Shown here piece by piece: positions 3,591-49,631 of a DNA stretch of 64,000 bases. Under the pieces are notes generated by a model. That model was not told the origin of the DNA and ran no database searches. It saw only the letters and a program-made list of their open reading frames with translations. Numbering within the stretch: position 1 is the stretch's first letter; every line of letters begins with the position of its first letter. A program made the position numbers and the translations under genes. The DNA comes from Sialis fuliginosa. Taxonomy: Eukaryota; Arthropoda; Insecta; Megaloptera; Sialidae. Where the stretch lies: positions 12,784,267-12,848,266 of the forward strand of contig OY540809.1 of NCBI GenBank assembly GCA_961205875.1, written 5' to 3'.

Positions 3591-6504
3591 CTAATTGCAT
3601 ACATTTTTTGATTGGGCTAACGACAATTTCCTTCTATGTCCAACTCCATGTCCATTGTATCTGTTACTTGTTGCAGCAACTTGTTGTTCGACTGCACTGT
3701 TGATCCTCGCCAATTCAGCTCCTTCAGGAGCACCCTCCAGACCTTGCAACATTCTAACAACGCTGTATAATGTGACGGGACTAATCAGTCCAAAATCAAA
3801 CAGACTACTTAAGTGTAAAATGAAATTTCTGTAAAGATTTCGTACAAGTATTTCTTTGCCACGATTCCTGACAAATTCAATACAAGCTAATGGTATCTGA
3901 CAATCCCCTACAAATCCACACTTCATAACGTGAAGGTTCCACAGCTTCATAAGTTCTTTTTCACCTTCGTTTACATCTGTGAAATCATCTATCATCATTC
4001 TAGTCTTAGTACGTAACCAGTCAGGATCATTTTCACCTTCAGAATCACAATCTAATTCCTGCGGCCATACAGGGAGACAAGTTCCTGTGTGGTGATAGAG
4101 ACGTGCATGTCCAGCTAAATACGGCCGTCTTGCATCTCTCTCGCATTCGTCTCTCTGTTGCAAAAACTCTGATAAATTATGTTGACTTTTGTGCGGTTTT
4201 AACACCAAAAGTCTGGTAACGGGTGCTCGGCGTGTCGGCCCTGTCGCAGGCAGTCTAGGCCCTGCGAGAGCGTGCGGTGTCCCGGCATACGATCCGTCGT
4301 ACAGTTCATTGATTGCAACGTCGATCCTCGCACCGCCAGTCTGTGATAAAGGCACATACGTAAATGTGAATCTTGCGTGACATAATCTCAGATGTTTCAG
4401 TAACGAATAAAGAAAACCACAATCAAGACTACACCATGGACAATGCAAATCTTCGCAAGCTTCGGTTTGCTGCCGACTGTTATTGTTGTATAAAAATTGA
4501 TAAACTATTTGATGTTTCTGAGAGTTCTCTTTCTCTTCTACCTTTGGTTTTTGTGTTAGGGATGCTGCTTGAGTGCCTCTTGACCATTTCAGTTTCAATT
4601 TGAGAGTTGGGTTTTGTTTAAACACATCAAAAGGACCAGAACTATCATCTACATCAGCGCCTATACTTTCCCAGTTGGAATATTTCTTAGGGGATATTTT
4701 AGGTGTAGGCATTGAAACCTCTTGTAATGATAATTCATAATCACCATCTGTCAATAAACACCTATTGTGTTTATCATATATTACCAATTCAGAACCATAA
4801 ATTTTGGTACAAGTTGAAGATTTTCTCCGTTTCTGAGGAGGTTGAGAGTCAGCATTTTCATTGATCATTGCTTGATTCGGAAAGCACTGTACTCTTAGCA
4901 CCAGCATGTATGATTTCACTATATGCCCGTTTGTAAAGTTAAATGTTTCGGTTGGTACTGTTATAACCGGAGTAGATGCAGCGTTCTCTTCGGACGGATT
5001 GATCACAACTTCGCTCACACCCAACATTATCTGCATCAGAGGCGAGACACTTTCTTTTCTTTTTTTGTGGCATATTTTAAGTAATATGGTTTCTACTTGA
5101 GCACATTGATAACATTCTAAATCAGAATTTTTTGAATAAAATCCATTAAATGTCAATGTCATCTGCCCTCCAATTGGAATAGGCTTGCAATTTGGTCGTG
5201 ATGATAACACCTGATCCAAAAGACTATCCACTTTAAAGGTACGGCGACTTGCATTCGTTCGTGACATTCGGTGCTTCATATAACTTAAAGTTCGATTTAA
5301 AAATATTGGCTGCATAGAAAAAATTTCAATTACTATTTATGTATGTTATTAATACAGTAGAGGCATGTTTTACATATGTATATGATTAAATTTTAAGACT
5401 GCATTGTAATGTTTCTGTATATATAAATAATATTTATTTATTTACATTATTTTTAAATTGATGGGACTAAACCAATTTTAACTAACTAAGCCACAGTTTG
5501 AGCTCTGTGATTTTAAAACAAATTATTATTAATTTCACTTACCGATAACATGTTTCTTGTACGAAGAAATCGATATATTTGTGTTGGTTCTGAAAAATAT
5601 AAAAAATATTTAAGTATATATATAATTTCATACGTAAAAAATATAAATTCTAGGGAAGCGGACTGAAGCATGGAAGTGTAACTATTTTGTTCAGATATCA
5701 TTTAATTACCATTTGCTTTAATGTATTTATTACTCGTATCTCTGAAAATCATTTTATTCTAATAGAATTATCAATCATAATAGAATTTTTTTGTGCTTAA
5801 GATGAATTACACATATTTGGTGCTTTTTATGAAAATTTTTAGTAAACATATTCTCAAACAAGCTTTTTAAAGGAAGTACTCTGACACCTGCCTCATCGAA
5901 CATATTACTATGGCTCCACCCACCCTTCCTGGTAAAAATTAAATTTGAGTTTTCAGAAGCAACCACTTTATCATTTACTATTAATTACTAATTATTTTTA
6001 GATAGCGTTTAAGGGTTCTTAAAATGTATTTTACAATAACTGTTAACGTTTTAATTTTCTTCTAATTTAAATTTAATCAATAGTTTGAAAAATCTGATTT
6101 ATAAATATCTTAGTCTCGATTAATTTAAATAATCCATGCCCTATTGTTTTTGGGAATATTTAAAATAAATATATCTTGATAATGAGTTGAAAAACATAAA
6201 ATAATTATTCCTGGAAGTTATTAATTTGTTTTTTTATAAAATTTGTATTTTTTAGTGAAAAAGTTAATGATCATATAATTAGGTATTACAAATATATGTT
6301 ATTCATTTTAATTTAAATAAAAACTTTTTTTACTAATTTTTTATAACATCAAAACAAATTCTATTTTGGGTTGAACAATCTCTACATAACCTTTAACAAC
6401 TTACTCTCAAATGCTTGTAAAAATAATTCATGGTCAGCTTGAATGTGATCTGCCCTGATGTTTTTGGAAGTTTCCCCATCTTTTTCGCGTTTTTTCGGTG
6501 GCAT
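3591..6504 (-). CDS. Su(z)12: Polycomb protein Su(z)12 (PRC2 subunit)
   Basis: Three exons on the minus strand: 6405-6504, 5543-5589 and 3591-5309; 621 residues. Su(z)12 is a core PRC2 subunit needed for H3K27 methylation. Exon 1 gives MPPKKREKDGETSKN and then the conserved ADHELFLQAFE. The 47-nt exon 2 supplies KPTQIYRFLRTRN across a split Lys codon, and exon 3 continues PIFLNRTL. A C2H2 zinc finger (CPWCSLDC ... LRLCH) sits near residues 339-361, and the VEFS box (FTDVNEGEKELMKLWNLHV onward) near 490-575. An in-frame ATG at 5315 spans the intron-exon border and is not the start; the family N-terminus lies in exon 1. The large last exon is intron-free and richer in G+C around 4190-4360. It faces mRpS18C head to head. 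Confidence 0.96.
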
Positions 6505-8414: not shown

Positions 8415-11400
8415 CTATTCAAAATCATCACCTTTTAAACATTTTCTTATTTCGAACCCTATCTGTCTCGCCATAGGTGGGGGTACAGCATTACCGACTT
8501 GTCTATGTTTATCTAAAATATTTCCAAAGAAACGATATGTATCAGGAAAACCTTGGCTACGAGCGCATTCCCGTACACTGACTACACGATTCTGCGATGG
8601 ATGTAACACTCTTCCTTGTTTACCCATGGGTTCTGGATTAGTTATTGTTGTAGAAAAGAACCCATCCCATTCGAGTCTGCCATACAATCCAGCCCAGTGG
8701 TTGTGACGGTCAGCAGTATGGGGTAAACACCATGGAATTAATGTATTATCTTGCCTGTCTGTTGGACAACACGGTTTTCCTTCAAAACAAGCACATACAC
8801 CTGAAAATTAAATAAACATTAAAAAAAATTTTTTCTCTAATATACCCATATATGTACCTCTTAATTTTTTCTGTTTATCGTAATAAGAATATACAAGTTT
8901 CCTTGTATAACTGCCATCTGAAAGACGAGTCACAATATTTGGTAAGTCCCTCCAGTCAGAACCGGGTGCCGTAGGAATAAATGACATTCTTGCTTCAACT
9001 ATCGGTGCCATTTCTTTACAAATATGATCTCTCAATACAGGTTGATACTGGTCCCCACGCATTAATCGTTGAAAATGAGATTGGGCTTCTGAATCATAAC
9101 TCATTTCTTCAAGTTTGTGTCCGTTTCGTACAGTAGGTAAATCCCACATAGCATCACGTACTGTCACCGTTCTTTAAAAAAATAAAAATCAGTTTCTATG
9201 ACTGCATATAAATGTATAATTAAAATATACCTGTACGGAGCTGAATTAGACCATTTAACATTTGTACTAAATTTCTTCTCATCAACCATGACTGTTAACT
9301 TGCAAGCTTGTTTTGAGAAGACGTGCGTTGGTTCAGGATACATCGGTAACTTCTGTCCGGGAGCAGCTGCAAGTATTATTAACCGTCGACGTGTCTGTGG
9401 TACTCCGTAGTTTCCAGCTTGTAAAACACCGAATGTGCATTGGTACCCCATAGCGATGAGACAACGCAGTGTAAGTTTTAAAACCAAACCGCGTTTAAAT
9501 GATACGAAATTACGTACATTTTCTAATATGAAGAATTTTGGACGATAATAATCACAGTATGACAGATACGAAACAATTAGTGAATTCTTAAAAAGTGAAT
9601 ACTGTCCAGCATTAAAACGGTTCATTCCTGAAAATCCTTGACAGGGAGGACCACCTAAAAGAAATATTATATTGTTTTGCAATAACTAATAACGTATTTG
9701 AAATAAAATTATAAATGAGGAAATGATTTTACATACCACAAAGTAGTTCAACATCTCCTCTTTGCGGCAACTTTTGACCTCTAGAAGTTGTATTTTTACC
9801 ATCAATAACTAAACGCAATAATTCATTACAATCTTCAGTGAAAACTGTAGCGCTTGGATTGTTTAGTTTGTATGCATGAGCGGCAGGTTCTTCTTTTTCA
9901 ATCTAAAAAAAATACATTTATTAAATGCATAATAACTGTTTCCTTTGTTAGTCTTACCGCCCATTCTGATTTGGCTATTTCAGATTGATTTAAACCTTCA
10001 CTCAGTCCTCCACATCCAGCAAAGACATCCAGTGCTCTAAGTGGCCGTAAAACAGGCATAAACATTTCTGGTTTGCATTTTGTTTCAGAGCTAAGATTTG
10101 ATTTCTTCTTTATTCCTTTACCCACACCTTTACCTTTACCTTCCATTCCCATTGACAACAAACGAGTTGGGACATCGGAAAACTCTTGCTTATCCACATT
10201 GTACATTTGATTGAAATAAAACCGATTTGGTCCTAATGCAGACCATTTATCAACTGGTATGTTTAATGCTTCACTGCATGCTATAAAACACTGTCCTTCT
10301 ACTTGGGCTAAAGTTATGTCTTTTACTAAAAAAAAATAACAAAAATTGTATTTTGATTATTATTATTATATAATATATACTCACATTCATCAGACCAATA
10401 TAGAGCATTGAAATCGAATTGTTGACCCAACGTTACTCCTTTATGTGTATTTTCTGGACGATACATTTTATAAACTTGTAGTTTAACATCTTCAGGTTTA
10501 ATTGGTTTACCATCGTCTTTCTGTTTATAAGTAATAGTTTTTATAACACCAATACAAAATGGACTTGATGTTTCCATATTAGAACCTCGAACTGTTTCTG
10601 TTTTACGATAAAACTCTGGGTATGTTTTTGAATCAAAATCTTTTTTATTTGATATTTTTGTGTTGCTTTCTAGAATTGCTACTTTGAATTTAAATATTTC
10701 AGGATCCAAGTAAACTCCAACTCCTTCATTATAATATCGTCCTCTCCACAGCAAAGAACTCCACGTATTATTATCGGAGGCATCAAACAATTGAGGTCTA
10801 TTAGAAGCAGTAATTTCTGAATTGTATCGGCAAGATGCACATGGTTTATATCCTTCAGGACCATGTTCTGAAGGTTTTTCTTCTATAAAAGGATCTTCAA
10901 AACGAGCTAAATCTGGATCATATTTCTTTTGAAAAAAGAAATGTTGGCCGTCATCTTCTAAAGATTCTGGTAACGTATCTAATCCTCCATTCATAGCCCA
11001 ACTTGGTGAAGGTTTTCTTTGTGTAACTACAGCCTGACGTACAATACTTCCTATATTAAATAAATAAATGTATTTATACAATTATAATATAAATATAAAT
11101 TCACAGATATGACTTACCAAGAGGTATACTTTCACAATCATTCACTAGAAATAATTCTCTTGAGTCTGCAGTTTCTCCAAGAACAGTATCAGAACCTCGA
11201 ATAAAATAATGTGCATGAAACATTTTCCTAGAACCTGAAACGAGTGATTTTTCAATTTAAAAACATAATTAATATCTTACTATTATCAATACCAACCGAC
11301 ATCTTCCTGCCACATGTACGCAACACGAGCAACCAGAAGTGGGCGACCTGTTTCCCGAGGTGCTAACATTACACAGTCTCCTGGTTCAACAGACACGCCA

Positions 11401-44193: not shown

Positions 44194-44648
44194 CAGGCAA
44201 CGAAGGGATTTAAATAGAACAAATTCGGAGTGCGGTGAAATTTGGTACCTATGTAGTATACATTATCCATGGGTCTGTGGAAAAAAATTTACAGTTGTTC
44301 GAAGTTTAATTCAGTTTTTATTGAATAACATCAAGACAAATAAAAATACCAAGACATACCATGCATTAAAATTTTCAAACTAAATTACAACTAAATTTCA
44401 AAATTTCTTCCAATGTGTATCCTAAATTATTATTAATTATGCCGAGAAAAACTCCACTGCCGAGAAAAACCTTGACGCCGATAAAAAGCTCGCGGCCGAG
44501 AAAAACCTAGTTGCCGATAAAAACCTCGCGGTCGGAAAAAACCTCGCTGCTGGAAAAGACCTACTATAATGTATACTACATAGGTACCAAATATTATTGC
44601 ACTCCGAATTTGTTCCAAAAACAGGGCAATTTTTCCCTTCATTACCTG
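44194..44648. mobile_element. Non-autonomous DNA transposon carrying a minisatellite
   Basis: Inverted ends: left CAGGCAACGAAGGGA (44194), right inverse CAGGTAATGAAGGGA (ending 44648). The arms continue inward through the shared blocks GAACAAATTCGGAGTGC and TTTGGTACCTATGTAGTATA, giving ~75-80 bp arms with small gaps. No convincing target duplication. The core holds an 18-bp minisatellite. It ends 38 bp downstream of the stop of the first CTH gene, so it could supply part of its 3' UTR. Confidence 0.8.
44441..44564. repeat. 18-bp minisatellite, about 7 units
   Basis: Units of exactly 18 bp, consensus GCCGAGAAAAACCTCGCG, starting at 44441, 44459, 44477, 44495, 44513, 44531 and 44549 (last one partial). 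It is open on the minus strand as a six-residue repeat, but this is low-complexity translation and not a gene. Confidence 0.9.
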
Positions 44649-44685: not shown

Positions 44686-46212
44686 TTAATTTGAAACAGC
44701 GATTCTCAAAGCGGCATCTAAATCTTCAATTAGATCATCGGCATCTTCTAACCCAACTGAAACTCGAATAAGATTTTCTGTTATTCCTAAATTTGATCGT
44801 TGTTCATTGGACAGTGATGCATGAGACATGACACATCTAAAATCAGAAAAATATTTACATTTATATATATTAAAATACATATATTTATAAAAAAACTCAC
44901 GGTAGAGATAATAAGCTTTCGCAGGCACCTAAACTTCCAGCTAATGTAAAAACTTTAACAGATTGTAAAAATGTTTTTGATTCCTTCAGGCCGCCTTTTA
45001 TATAAAATGCAAGTATACCACTATGACCATAACATTGTTTTTTACTTAATTCATGTTGAGGATGTGATGGCAAACCTAGAGAATTATAAAAATAAAAAAT
45101 ATTTATCTTCTAAGTGAAATATTCAATATAAATTTAATTTATACCAGGATGCAAAACTTTTTCAACAGCTGGATGCGTTTCTAAAAATTTTGCAACTTTC
45201 AATCCATTTTTCATATGTTTTTCCATACGAATTGGCAAAGTTTTTAAACTTCTTGTTACTAATCCGCAATCAAAAGGTGATGGTACAACTCCCATTATTT
45301 TTTGTAAATAATTAATTCTTGTTCTTAACGTTTCGTCATTTATTACCAAAGCGCCCATCAATACATCTGCATGTCCATTCATGTATTTCGACATAGAATA
45401 CATAACGATATCTGCACCAAGATCAAGAGGCCGTTGAAAATAACTCGTTAAAAATGTATTATCAACTGCTAAAATAATATTATGATTTTTCGTTATTTTT
45501 GATATTTTTTCAATATCTCCAACTTTGAAAACTGGATTTGTTGGCGTTTCAATAAACATAAGCTAAAAAGTAATATTTTTAATTGTAATATAACTCCATT
45601 TATACTTACATAACCTAAATATTCTATTGTTAATTTAATACCTTAGTATTTTCTCTGATAGCATCCTCAATTTTTTTTTCATTGCAAATATCAACAAATG
45701 TTATTTCAGAGCTTTGTCTTTTGAGTACTTCGTAAAACATCTGATTTGTTCCACCGTATAAACTATCACCACATATAACGTGTTCGTTAGCATTAACTAA
45801 GCCTGCAACTATAGACGCAGCTCCATTTCCAGATGCAAAACAGAATCCGTACTTTCCATTATCTAATGAAGCGATGTGTCTTTCTAATACATCACGTGAA
45901 GGATTACCATTTCGACCATATTGAAACTAAATATCAAGAAAATATATCTAAGAAATATATTTTTTTAATTTTTAACTTTGCCTATGTTAAATATCATATT
46001 GTATTAATTTCAATATATCTCATATACATATGATCAAATTAGTCAATTAATGGTTAACCTACCTTTCCTTCTCCTGGAGTATTTTGTTTAAAAGTAGTCG
46101 ATAAAGTAATTGGTGCTACGATTGCTTTTGAATTCCATTGTTCTGGTTCTTGAGCAGCGTGAACTGCTTTTGTAGAAAATCCACGTATTTGTTTCAAAAA
46201 TCCGTGTTCCAT
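44686..46212 (-). CDS. CTH: Cystathionine gamma-lyase-like, diverged copy A
   Basis: Five exons, minus strand: 46063-46212, 45642-45926, 45145-45562, 44901-45075 and 44686-44836; 392 residues. A PLP enzyme of the Cys/Met metabolism (CGL) family, cytosolic; the family enzyme splits cystathionine to cysteine, 2-oxobutyrate and ammonia. The PLP lysine is K204 in MYSMSKYMNGH. YGR (residues 53-55), YGGTN and VDNTF are kept. Three residues that fix substrate choice in human CTH differ: E59 is Q52 here (FQYGRNG), R119 is Q112 (YGGTNQMF) and E339 is G331 (TLAGSLGACESL). The frame is intact and all splice sites are canonical, so it is a working gene of possibly altered specificity. Exon layout and phases match copy B 0.9 kb downstream on the plus coordinates, showing tandem duplication. 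Confidence 0.93.
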
Positions 46213-47089: not shown

Positions 47090-49631
47090 TTATTTGGCAA
47101 CAGCAATTTTTAATGCATTATCTATATCTTGTATCAAATCGTTGACATCTTCGAGTCCTACAGAAATTCTGATAAGATTATCTGTTATTCCTAACTTTGC
47201 TCTTTGATCTTCAGGCACTGATGCATGCGTCATCACGGAACTAAAAATAGTTAATAGATTAATACAAAAATACAAATGATTTAAAAATAAATTTATAAAA
47301 TAATCAGTTGTTATTAAATTTTAATATTTATTGACAAAATAAACTTACGGCAGTTCTGCTAAACTCTCGAAGCCTCCTAAACTTTCAGCTAAGGTAAATA
47401 TCTTGAGTGAATTCAAAAATAATTTTGATTCTTCTAATCCACCTTTAAGATAGAATGACAACATACCACTATGACCATAGCATTGTTTTTTAGTTATTTC
47501 GTATTGAGGATGAGATGGTAATGCTAAAAAATAAATAATAAACAGAAATAAGCAGACAAATAATTTAAATATTTCAGCACTCGTTAAAAAATTGTGCAAT
47601 TTTCAAATAGCTGTAACTTTGGTCTTTAAGATTCCTTTAATTTTTTTATACAAGCAAATGAAAATAACCCATATTTGATGAAATCGGGTAGTTCACATTG
47701 TATAGTGTTCAATGGTTAATAATTTTAATATTTCTAATAATTTCATTCAGACTTTTAAGAATTATTACTGAGTGTAGTACTGTGTATGTAAACCTATAAA
47801 AAAATAAAAGCCAAGCGAGCGCAAGCGAGCCAGTTTTAAAAATCAGTACATATTAAACAACGAAGTTATGAGACACTATGTATTTATTACATTTAAAGTT
47901 GTTATTAAATAAATTAGAAATCGATATACAAAGTTTTTATTTATTTGTAGGTTTTGTAATTAATCTAAAAAAATTAAACTTATGTAGATTTATAGGGAAT
48001 TTCATAACGAATTAAGTGGTATATTTTTTATTCGATTATCAGGAGTCCCGATATTTCAGAAACATTGAAAATTCCTGTAAATTCTTATCATTAATACACG
48101 AGTAATTAGGTGTTTTATATAAATTATATCTCACTTAGGAGCTCAATATGAAAAAATGTTTTTTGAAGGTTGTTTTAAGGATTTAAAAATGTATAAATAT
48201 TTGGAAACTACATAAAAAATAGAATAAAATGACCTATACCGGAAGTATTTTGGTTGAAACCAAAATATTTGGCGGCAATTTCAAAATCGACTATTTTTAC
48301 AAAAAATCAAACTTAATGTTTTGGTACCGCATTCGGCCAAAATTGAATATTCGGCTCTGAAACCGATTTCAAATGAAAGATCAACAAAAAATGAAGAAAA
48401 TGAGCCTTATAACATGCATAATAAGGGACATTTTGAAAAATAAGGTACTATCAAAAAAAGTCTAATTTCGCTCGATTTCAAAAGTTTAAAAAATCGTAAT
48501 TCAGCCAAAAAAGGTGGCGGGGAGAAAAGATTTTGGGAAACGTGTTTTTTTGATATATACTTTGAGGAAAAAAAATGGGAGCAAAATCGGTGACATACGT
48601 GCGCCCTGTTTTTTAAAAAACTACTGGAAATGCTCATATATATGTTTATTAAATTTGTAAGCTAAATACCTGGATGCAGAACTCTCTCTACTGCAGCATG
48701 GGACTCTAAAAATTTTCCAACAGCTAATCCACTCTTCATATGTTCCTTCATACGGACTGCTAAAGTTTTTAAACTGCGATTAACCAAAGCACAATCAAAT
48801 GGTGAAGGCACTATTCCCATAGCATTTTGCAAGAATCTAATACGTTCTTGTAAAACTTCGTTGTTTGTGACGACTGCTCCCATTATAACATCAGAATGTC
48901 CGTTCATGTATTTTGTAAGAGAATATAATACAATATCGGCTCCAAGATTAAGAGGACGTTGGAAATAACTTGTTAAAAATGTATTGTCCACTACCAAGAT
49001 TAAATTATGTTTTTTTGTTATTTCCGAAATTTTTTGAATGTCTACCACTTTAAACAACGGATTGGTTGGTGTTTCTACAAATACCATCTGAAATAGAGAT
49101 ATTATTTAGTCACGGTTAATACACAAAGTAAAATTTACCTTTGTATTCTTCTTAATAGCCTTTTCAACATTTTTTTCATCCGTGGTGTCAATTAATGTTA
49201 TTTCAATTCCTTGTCTATTAATAACTTTGCTGAATAATCGATTGGTACCACCATAAACATCATCACCACATATCACATGATCGTTTGCATTCAATAAACT
49301 CATGATCGTAGTTGTAGCACCTAATCCAGAAGCAAAGCAGAACCCGTACTTTCCTTCATCTAAAGACGCAATACATTTTTCTAAGACATCACGTGTTGGA
49401 TTTCCTGAACGACCGTAATCATATTGCTTTAAAAAAATAATCAAAATTAGATATAATCATTTATAAAATATCAATGAATACCTTTGGTTCCGCTGGCGAG
49501 GTTTGTTTGAACGTGGTTGATAATGTTATAGGTGGAACGACGGCATAAGAACTCCATTGTTCTGGTTCTTGACCGACATGAATAGCACGGGTGGCATAAT
49601 CTGATGTCTGTTTTAAAAATCCGTTCTCCAT
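47090..49631 (-). CDS. CTH: Cystathionine gamma-lyase, conventional copy B
   Basis: Five exons, minus strand: 49482-49631, 49139-49426, 48670-49087, 47349-47523 and 47090-47240; 393 residues (human CTH 405). It catalyses the last step of transsulfuration, cystathionine to cysteine, with PLP. Catalytic lysine K205 in YSLTKYMNGHSD; YGRSGNPTR, DDVYGGTNR (R113 = human R119) and TLAESLGGFESLAELP (E332 = human E339) are conserved; human E59 is replaced by the similar Asp (D53). Near-identical domain order to vertebrate CTH supports normal activity. Intron 3 (47524-48669) is 1.15 kb compared with 69 bp in copy A, because of inserted sequence. A TTTAAAG acceptor is used at exon 2. Confidence 0.95.
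47524..48669. other. Expanded intron 3 of CTH copy B
   Basis: 1146 bp where copy A has 69 bp. It contains a perfect hairpin, TATTTTGGTT-GA-AACCAAAATA (48246-48267), and a relatively GC-richer block to about 48610 that looks unlike the surroundings, likely one or more decayed insertions. No transposase-like frame is seen. Confidence 0.5.

Follow-up and report, generated by a model that had tools for sequence, protein, structure and literature searches.

The window analysed here is the whole stretch of 64,000 nucleotides from Sialis fuliginosa (G000:C1:12784267-12848266), taken from a genome of 392 Mb that is assembled in 14 contigs of chromosome size and six smaller ones. Two intact genes related to that of cystathionine gamma-lyase (CTH or CGL) lie in it head to tail on the minus strand, with five exons each; we refer to them as copy A and copy B (positions are those of the window):

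44686..46212, minus strand: copy A gene, 392 amino acids, GT-AG introns, open frame, PF01053 match
46212-46063, 45926-45642, 45562-45145, 45075-44901, 44836-44686, minus strand: coding exons of copy A, GT-AG splicing
47090..49631, minus strand: copy B gene, CTH-like, 393 amino acids, GT-AG introns, open frame, PF01053 match
49631-49482, 49426-49139, 49087-48670, 47523-47349, 47240-47090, minus strand: coding exons of copy B, GT-AG splicing

All eight introns of the two copies have GT-AG borders (8/8), and their positions coincide except at the beginning of exon 2, which is one codon shorter in copy A. The copy A protein is 67% identical to that of copy B and 55% identical to human CTH. Its score of 463.9 bits against the PF01053 profile (Cys/Met metabolism PLP enzymes; cut-off 27) and the presence of K204 make it a member of the family; copy B scores 503.5 bits.

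A search of the whole genome with the PF01053 profile and copy A as query, which sets a lower bound on copy number, revealed copies A and B as the only insect members of the family. The sole other match, on contig C16 (17.6 kb), was rejected as a third insect copy: it is intronless and has bacterial-type neighbours, and the contig was therefore taken as bacterial. It looks like a contaminant or an associate within the insect assembly; in the stretch G000:C16:4000-13999 we observed bacterial-type genes, with the PF01053 gene in two frames at about 5355-6504 of that stretch. A bacterial origin of copy A itself is excluded by its four introns, which match those of copy B, and by the tree described below.

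Intron 3 of copy B (47524-48669) is 1,146 nt long, that of copy A 69 nt. About 70 nt beyond the stop codon of copy A lies an inserted element (44217-44615), whose inverted ends are 50 nt long (92%) and enclose an 18-bp tandem array at 44440-44565; relatives of the element occur on many chromosomes (at least 97 match rows, with 40 of 303 candidates scored). This element also contains the first AATAAA downstream of copy A, 364 nt beyond the stop codon.

Substrate ligands and catalytic core of copy A

The earlier note had proposed that copy A carries Gln, Gln and Gly at human positions 59, 119 and 339, and that copy B keeps Arg119 and Glu339 with Asp at 59. Alignment with human CTH bears out both statements (Q52/Q112/G331 in copy A, D/R/E in copy B), and at 55% identity its register is unambiguous at positions 119 and 339. 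At position 59, where exon 2 of copy A is a codon short of that of copy B, using the next AG upstream would include a TAG stop (by eye), so the assignment of Q52 holds. The following codons of copy A are considered below:

45921..45923, minus strand: Gln52, human E59, distal amino ligand
45909..45911, minus strand: Asn56, human S63, near the substrate side chain
45741..45743, minus strand: Gln112, human R119, distal carboxyl ligand
45386..45388, minus strand: Lys204, human K212, PLP Schiff-base lysine, kept
45368..45370, minus strand: Ala210, human S218
45299..45301, minus strand: Lys233, human N241, distal carboxyl ligand
44936..44938, minus strand: Gly331, human E339, distal amino ligand

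In a crystal structure of CGL with cystathionine, which its authors describe as low resolution, the distal carboxyl group is bound by R102, R45 and N223 and the distal amino group by E320 and E42 (PMC7483736). Numbering offsets were used to map R102, R45, N223, E320 and E42 to human R119, R62, N241, E339 and E59, where copy A has Q/R/K/G/Q and copy B R/R/N/E/D. Four of the five distal ligands are thus replaced in copy A, and the one kept is R62, which also clamps PLP; the set E59, R119, N241 and E339 expected of a CGL enzyme reads Q, Q, K and G.

The catalytic machinery is far better preserved. At twelve cofactor, catalytic and alpha-carboxylate positions, copy A is identical to human CTH in ten; the departures are T211S and L91N, the latter at the PLP phosphate. 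Kept residues (human numbering) include the PLP lysine, Y114, Y60/R62, N161, D187, S209, S340 and R375. The earlier description of copy A as an open frame that retains the PLP lysine K204 and the clamp Tyr and Arg (Y53, R55) was accurate.

Position of copy A among the enzyme classes of the family

Among the best 80 of at least 573 prokaryotic relatives, R119 is present in 80/80, E339 in 78/80 and E59 in 65/80; the sets at 59/119/339 are ERE (64), VRE (5), DRE (4), ARE (3), QRE (2), DRV (1) and ERD (1). Since E59 is replaced in 15 of these sequences, in two of them by Gln, position 59 is weak evidence. The CTH structure 8j6n, possibly an engineered entry, has Val there. Toxoplasma CGL has Ser (S77) and still cleaves cystathionine; its S77E mutant is inactive, and S77A has a kcat/Km about eightfold lower according to Table 1 of that study, although the authors deem the parameters near wild type (PMC6073527). 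The claim that all three specificity residues have changed is consequently strict for 119 and 339 and loose for 59, which varies in homologues. In the N241 column, 61 of the best 80 relatives have N, 16 have F and 3 have K, so that Lys at this position is rare, though not unique, among them.

A further 68 loci were obtained with the TIGR01328 model of bacterial methionine gamma-lyase (MGL) as the best 8, 30 and 30 matches in 4, 185 and 296 genomes, a non-random sample; only two of them, L127 and L157, exceed the model cut-off. In the combined set of 148 sequences (80 + 68, at least four genes being counted twice), R119 and E339 are both present in 92, both absent in 54 and mixed in two. The 54 sequences lacking both have I, V, L or F at position 59 (one Thr), mostly T or V at 119 (one Q), and V (32), A (21) or S (1) at 339. 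Family members outside the cystathionine type thus normally lack R119 and E339 together. The Q/Q/G set itself was found in 0/80 of the best prokaryotic homologues and in 0/54 of the class without R119 and E339. N241 does not track the classes: it is R or K in most of one batch of 24 non-cystathionine loci, and is kept in 27/30 loci without R119 and E339 in the batch from 296 genomes.

At human D112 and S218, copy A has Ser and Ala, which rank among the most frequent states of the class without R119 and E339 (for S218: A 25, G 25 and S 4 in the 54 sequences). The cystathionine type has 113 conserved columns, 13 of which discriminate between the classes; copy A departs from the cystathionine state in 7/13 of the discriminating columns and in 18/100 of the others (p=0.008), as compared to 2/13 and 16/100 for copy B and 2/13 and 10/100 for human CTH. 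This test is partly circular, because two of the columns had defined the classes; without them the result for copy A is 5/11 against 18/100 (p=0.048), and for changes found only in copy A 3/9 against 7/84 (p=0.054).

Copy A shares with animal CTH the PF01053 domain, the catalytic residues, the gene lineage and, in the human case, 55% identity, and differs from it in the replacement of R119, E339, E59 and N241. With bacterial MGL it shares the absence of E59, R119 and E339. The two loci above the TIGR01328 cut-off have I/A/V (L127) and I/G/V (L157) at 59/119/339; this hydrophobic/neutral/Val combination differs from the polar Q/Q/G of copy A, and both loci have Cys at human G116, where copy A has Gly. 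With 345.4 bits against a cut-off of 549.7 (copy B, 362.7), copy A is ruled out as a member of the MGL family. We also dropped a reading of K233 as an MGL-like lysine, the register at that column being uncertain (K in L127, D in L157; a Pseudomonas sequence has Asp there).

The engineered forms of human CTH, namely cyst(e)inase E59T/E339V and triple mutants at 59/119/339, resemble copy A in the positions changed and in the CTH scaffold. They differ in the residues introduced; copy A is natural and has the additional N241 change.

Duplication and selection

In a tree of 50 sequences, the split uniting copies A and B and the split uniting both with human CTH and 8j6n each received a support of 100, which places copy A in the animal CTH lineage. 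An alternative tree, in which copy B joins the vertebrate pair and copy A is excluded, was rejected at p-AU 0.014, on a number of replicates below that recommended for the program. Since A groups with B, the duplication falls on the arthropod side. The dS between the copies was estimated as 1.5 (NG86), 1.0 (LWL85) and 5.5 (ML, saturated), and on these values from three methods the duplication is old; dN is 0.18-0.21, and pairwise dN/dS is 0.14 (NG86), 0.20 (LWL85) and 0.03 (ML).

Copy A has the longer branch (0.33 vs 0.12) and 43 private changes against 22 in copy B with human CTH as outgroup (chi-square 6.8; 5.2-11.8 over six outgroups). At columns conserved in at least 90%, changes of copy A alone (11/43) were no more concentrated than those of copy B alone (5/22; p=1.0), a result that speaks against a selective retooling of conserved sites. 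In a simple neutral simulation the frame stayed open in 0/300 runs at each of three distances. Judged from these comparisons, copy A evolves faster than copy B, yet under constraint. The earlier note had named relaxed or neutral evolution of copy A as an argument against a new function; the pairwise dN/dS of 0.03-0.20 speaks instead for purifying selection on the pair.

Possible function of copy A

In animals, CTH makes cysteine, and H2S arises by side reactions. A CBS gene is present on contig C6 (its exon matches span positions 27-446 of 457, no single exon exceeding the cut-off), so that copy B together with CBS can run ordinary transsulfuration and would sustain it, leaving copy A free to change. 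A gene of PF05694, the family of methanethiol oxidase, is present on contig C9. Neither the CBS nor the PF05694 gene proves anything about copy A. Apart from the CBS gene at 12624606, PF00291 exon matches are clustered at G000:C6:12383639-12386466 and may represent two tandem genes.

Double mutants of CGL at the E42 and E320 positions gain activity towards L-cysteine and L-cystine, and triple mutants at E42, R102 and E320 gain MGL activity; the gain of cysteine activity is reported for human CGL and is absent in yeast CGL (PMC7483736). In yeast CGL, double E48/E333 mutants selectively lose cystathionine hydrolysis, and E333, the equivalent of human E339, sets the substrate orientation against beta-elimination (PMC6073527). 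Changing both Glu in human CGL favours beta-elimination of cyst(e)ine (PMC6073527; PMC7483736). The E59T/E339V pair of human CTH has been named cyst(e)inase (PMC11340627), and PDB entry 5eig is human CTH with T59 and V339. For beta-elimination by mammalian CGL, cystine is the better substrate (PMC11229439).

Against this background, the explanation we somewhat favour is that copy A functions as a PLP lyase of the CGL family but no longer recognises the distal zwitterion of cystathionine. Substrates would still bind by their alpha-amino acid end and undergo elimination normally, but the pocket would have ceased to select for an additional amino acid head. The main cystathionine activity has likely been lost, and copy A probably acts on another sulfur compound. 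Candidate reactions would be beta- or gamma-elimination on homocysteine, cysteine or methionine, in no particular order; the loss of R119 and N241 argues against cystine, which has a distal zwitterion too, and for smaller substrates. The idea of the earlier note, a new sulfur-amino-acid reaction, is thus supported as regards cystathionine recognition, by the N241 change in addition to those at 59, 119 and 339, the firm grouping of A with B and the purifying selection on the pair. Its shift towards methionine is not: Q/Q/G is polar, the TIGR01328 score of 345 bits falls below 549.7, and the mutant literature also permits cysteine or cystine. Methionine in particular is an unlikely substrate. 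Counting against the favoured explanation are a Q/Q/G set that matches none among the surveyed homologues, the variability of position 59 in true CTHs, the failure of N241 to separate the classes, and the change of L91 to Asn.

If copy A were still essentially a cystathionine gamma-lyase, specialised by tissue or stage of expression rather than by chemistry, its case would resemble that of aphids, whose two CTH genes differ in bacteriocyte regulation (PMC10067822), and the variability of position 59 in true CTHs would fit; the loss of both R119 (80/80 in the best homologues) and E339 (78/80) makes this improbable. We regard a decaying or dead paralogue under relaxed constraint, either a pseudoenzyme or a subunit in mixed tetramers with copy B, as distinctly improbable. 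The roughly twofold excess of private changes (43 vs 22), the longer branch (0.33 vs 0.12), the changes at L91, T211, T355 and G343, and the first AATAAA, 364 nt beyond the stop inside an inserted repeat, point that way, and are opposed by the open frame, the canonical splice sites, the pairwise dN/dS of 0.03-0.20 and the retention of the PLP lysine and Y114. Conversion into a cystathionine beta-lyase, yielding homocysteine that could, for example, feed methionine synthesis by a symbiont, is likewise distinctly improbable: it would agree with Gly in place of E339, whose yeast equivalent E333 opposes beta-elimination (PMC6073527), and psyllid host beta-lyase genes have been discussed as symbiont partners (PMC10558732), but without R119 and N241 cystathionine should bind less well in either orientation.

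Returning to the favoured reading of a lyase without distal recognition, it can be extended, quite tentatively, to a natural animal lyase for methionine, homocysteine or cysteine, derived from CTH by stripping the distal ligands and possibly serving a plant or symbiont amino acid. Evolution might then have used the same positions as protein engineers, but with a polar Q/Q/K/G pocket, of which our literature search, partial in coverage, found no description. If the pocket has truly been rebuilt under constraint, copy A would parallel in nature the engineered cyst(e)inase and methionine-degrading designs, and with the pair one could test directly how substrate specificity changes after duplication in the CTH family.

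The pair may also be relevant to how the two CTH genes of sap-feeding insects share their tasks, a matter on which the reports cited here give expression data. Two CTH genes with differing bacteriocyte expression have already been published for aphids: one gene has a bacteriocyte logFC of 5.57 in Myzus and 6.48 in the pea aphid, the other 0.68 (not significant) and -1.16, respectively (PMC10067822, Table 1). The genes are g10610 and g10608 in Myzus, whose close numbers suggest a tandem pair, and 100159197 and 100159560 in the pea aphid (PMC10067822). They are set beside copies A and B by gene count, two in one insect, and not by sequence. Bactericera has two CGL genes, both upregulated in bacteriomes (PMC10558732, Table 1), and CGL is highly expressed in the firefly light organ (PMC6191289; PMC7522259). 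Active-site residues of insect CTH are not discussed in the portions of these aphid, Bactericera and firefly papers drawn on here, and no report of active-site divergence between insect CTH paralogues emerged from the same partial search.

Several observations concern the rest of the assembly. A pattern search for viral contigs matched 19 stretches, none of which was confirmed. TTAGG-type repeats open 10 of the 13 contigs C2-C14 (first 500 bases), and two of the other three begin with N. Contig C20 is mitochondrial, translated with the invertebrate code, and its gene order is the ancestral insect order. These features agree with an insect genome. Within the window, minus-strand frames at 8415-11081 resemble, by eye, exons of DNA methyltransferase 1.
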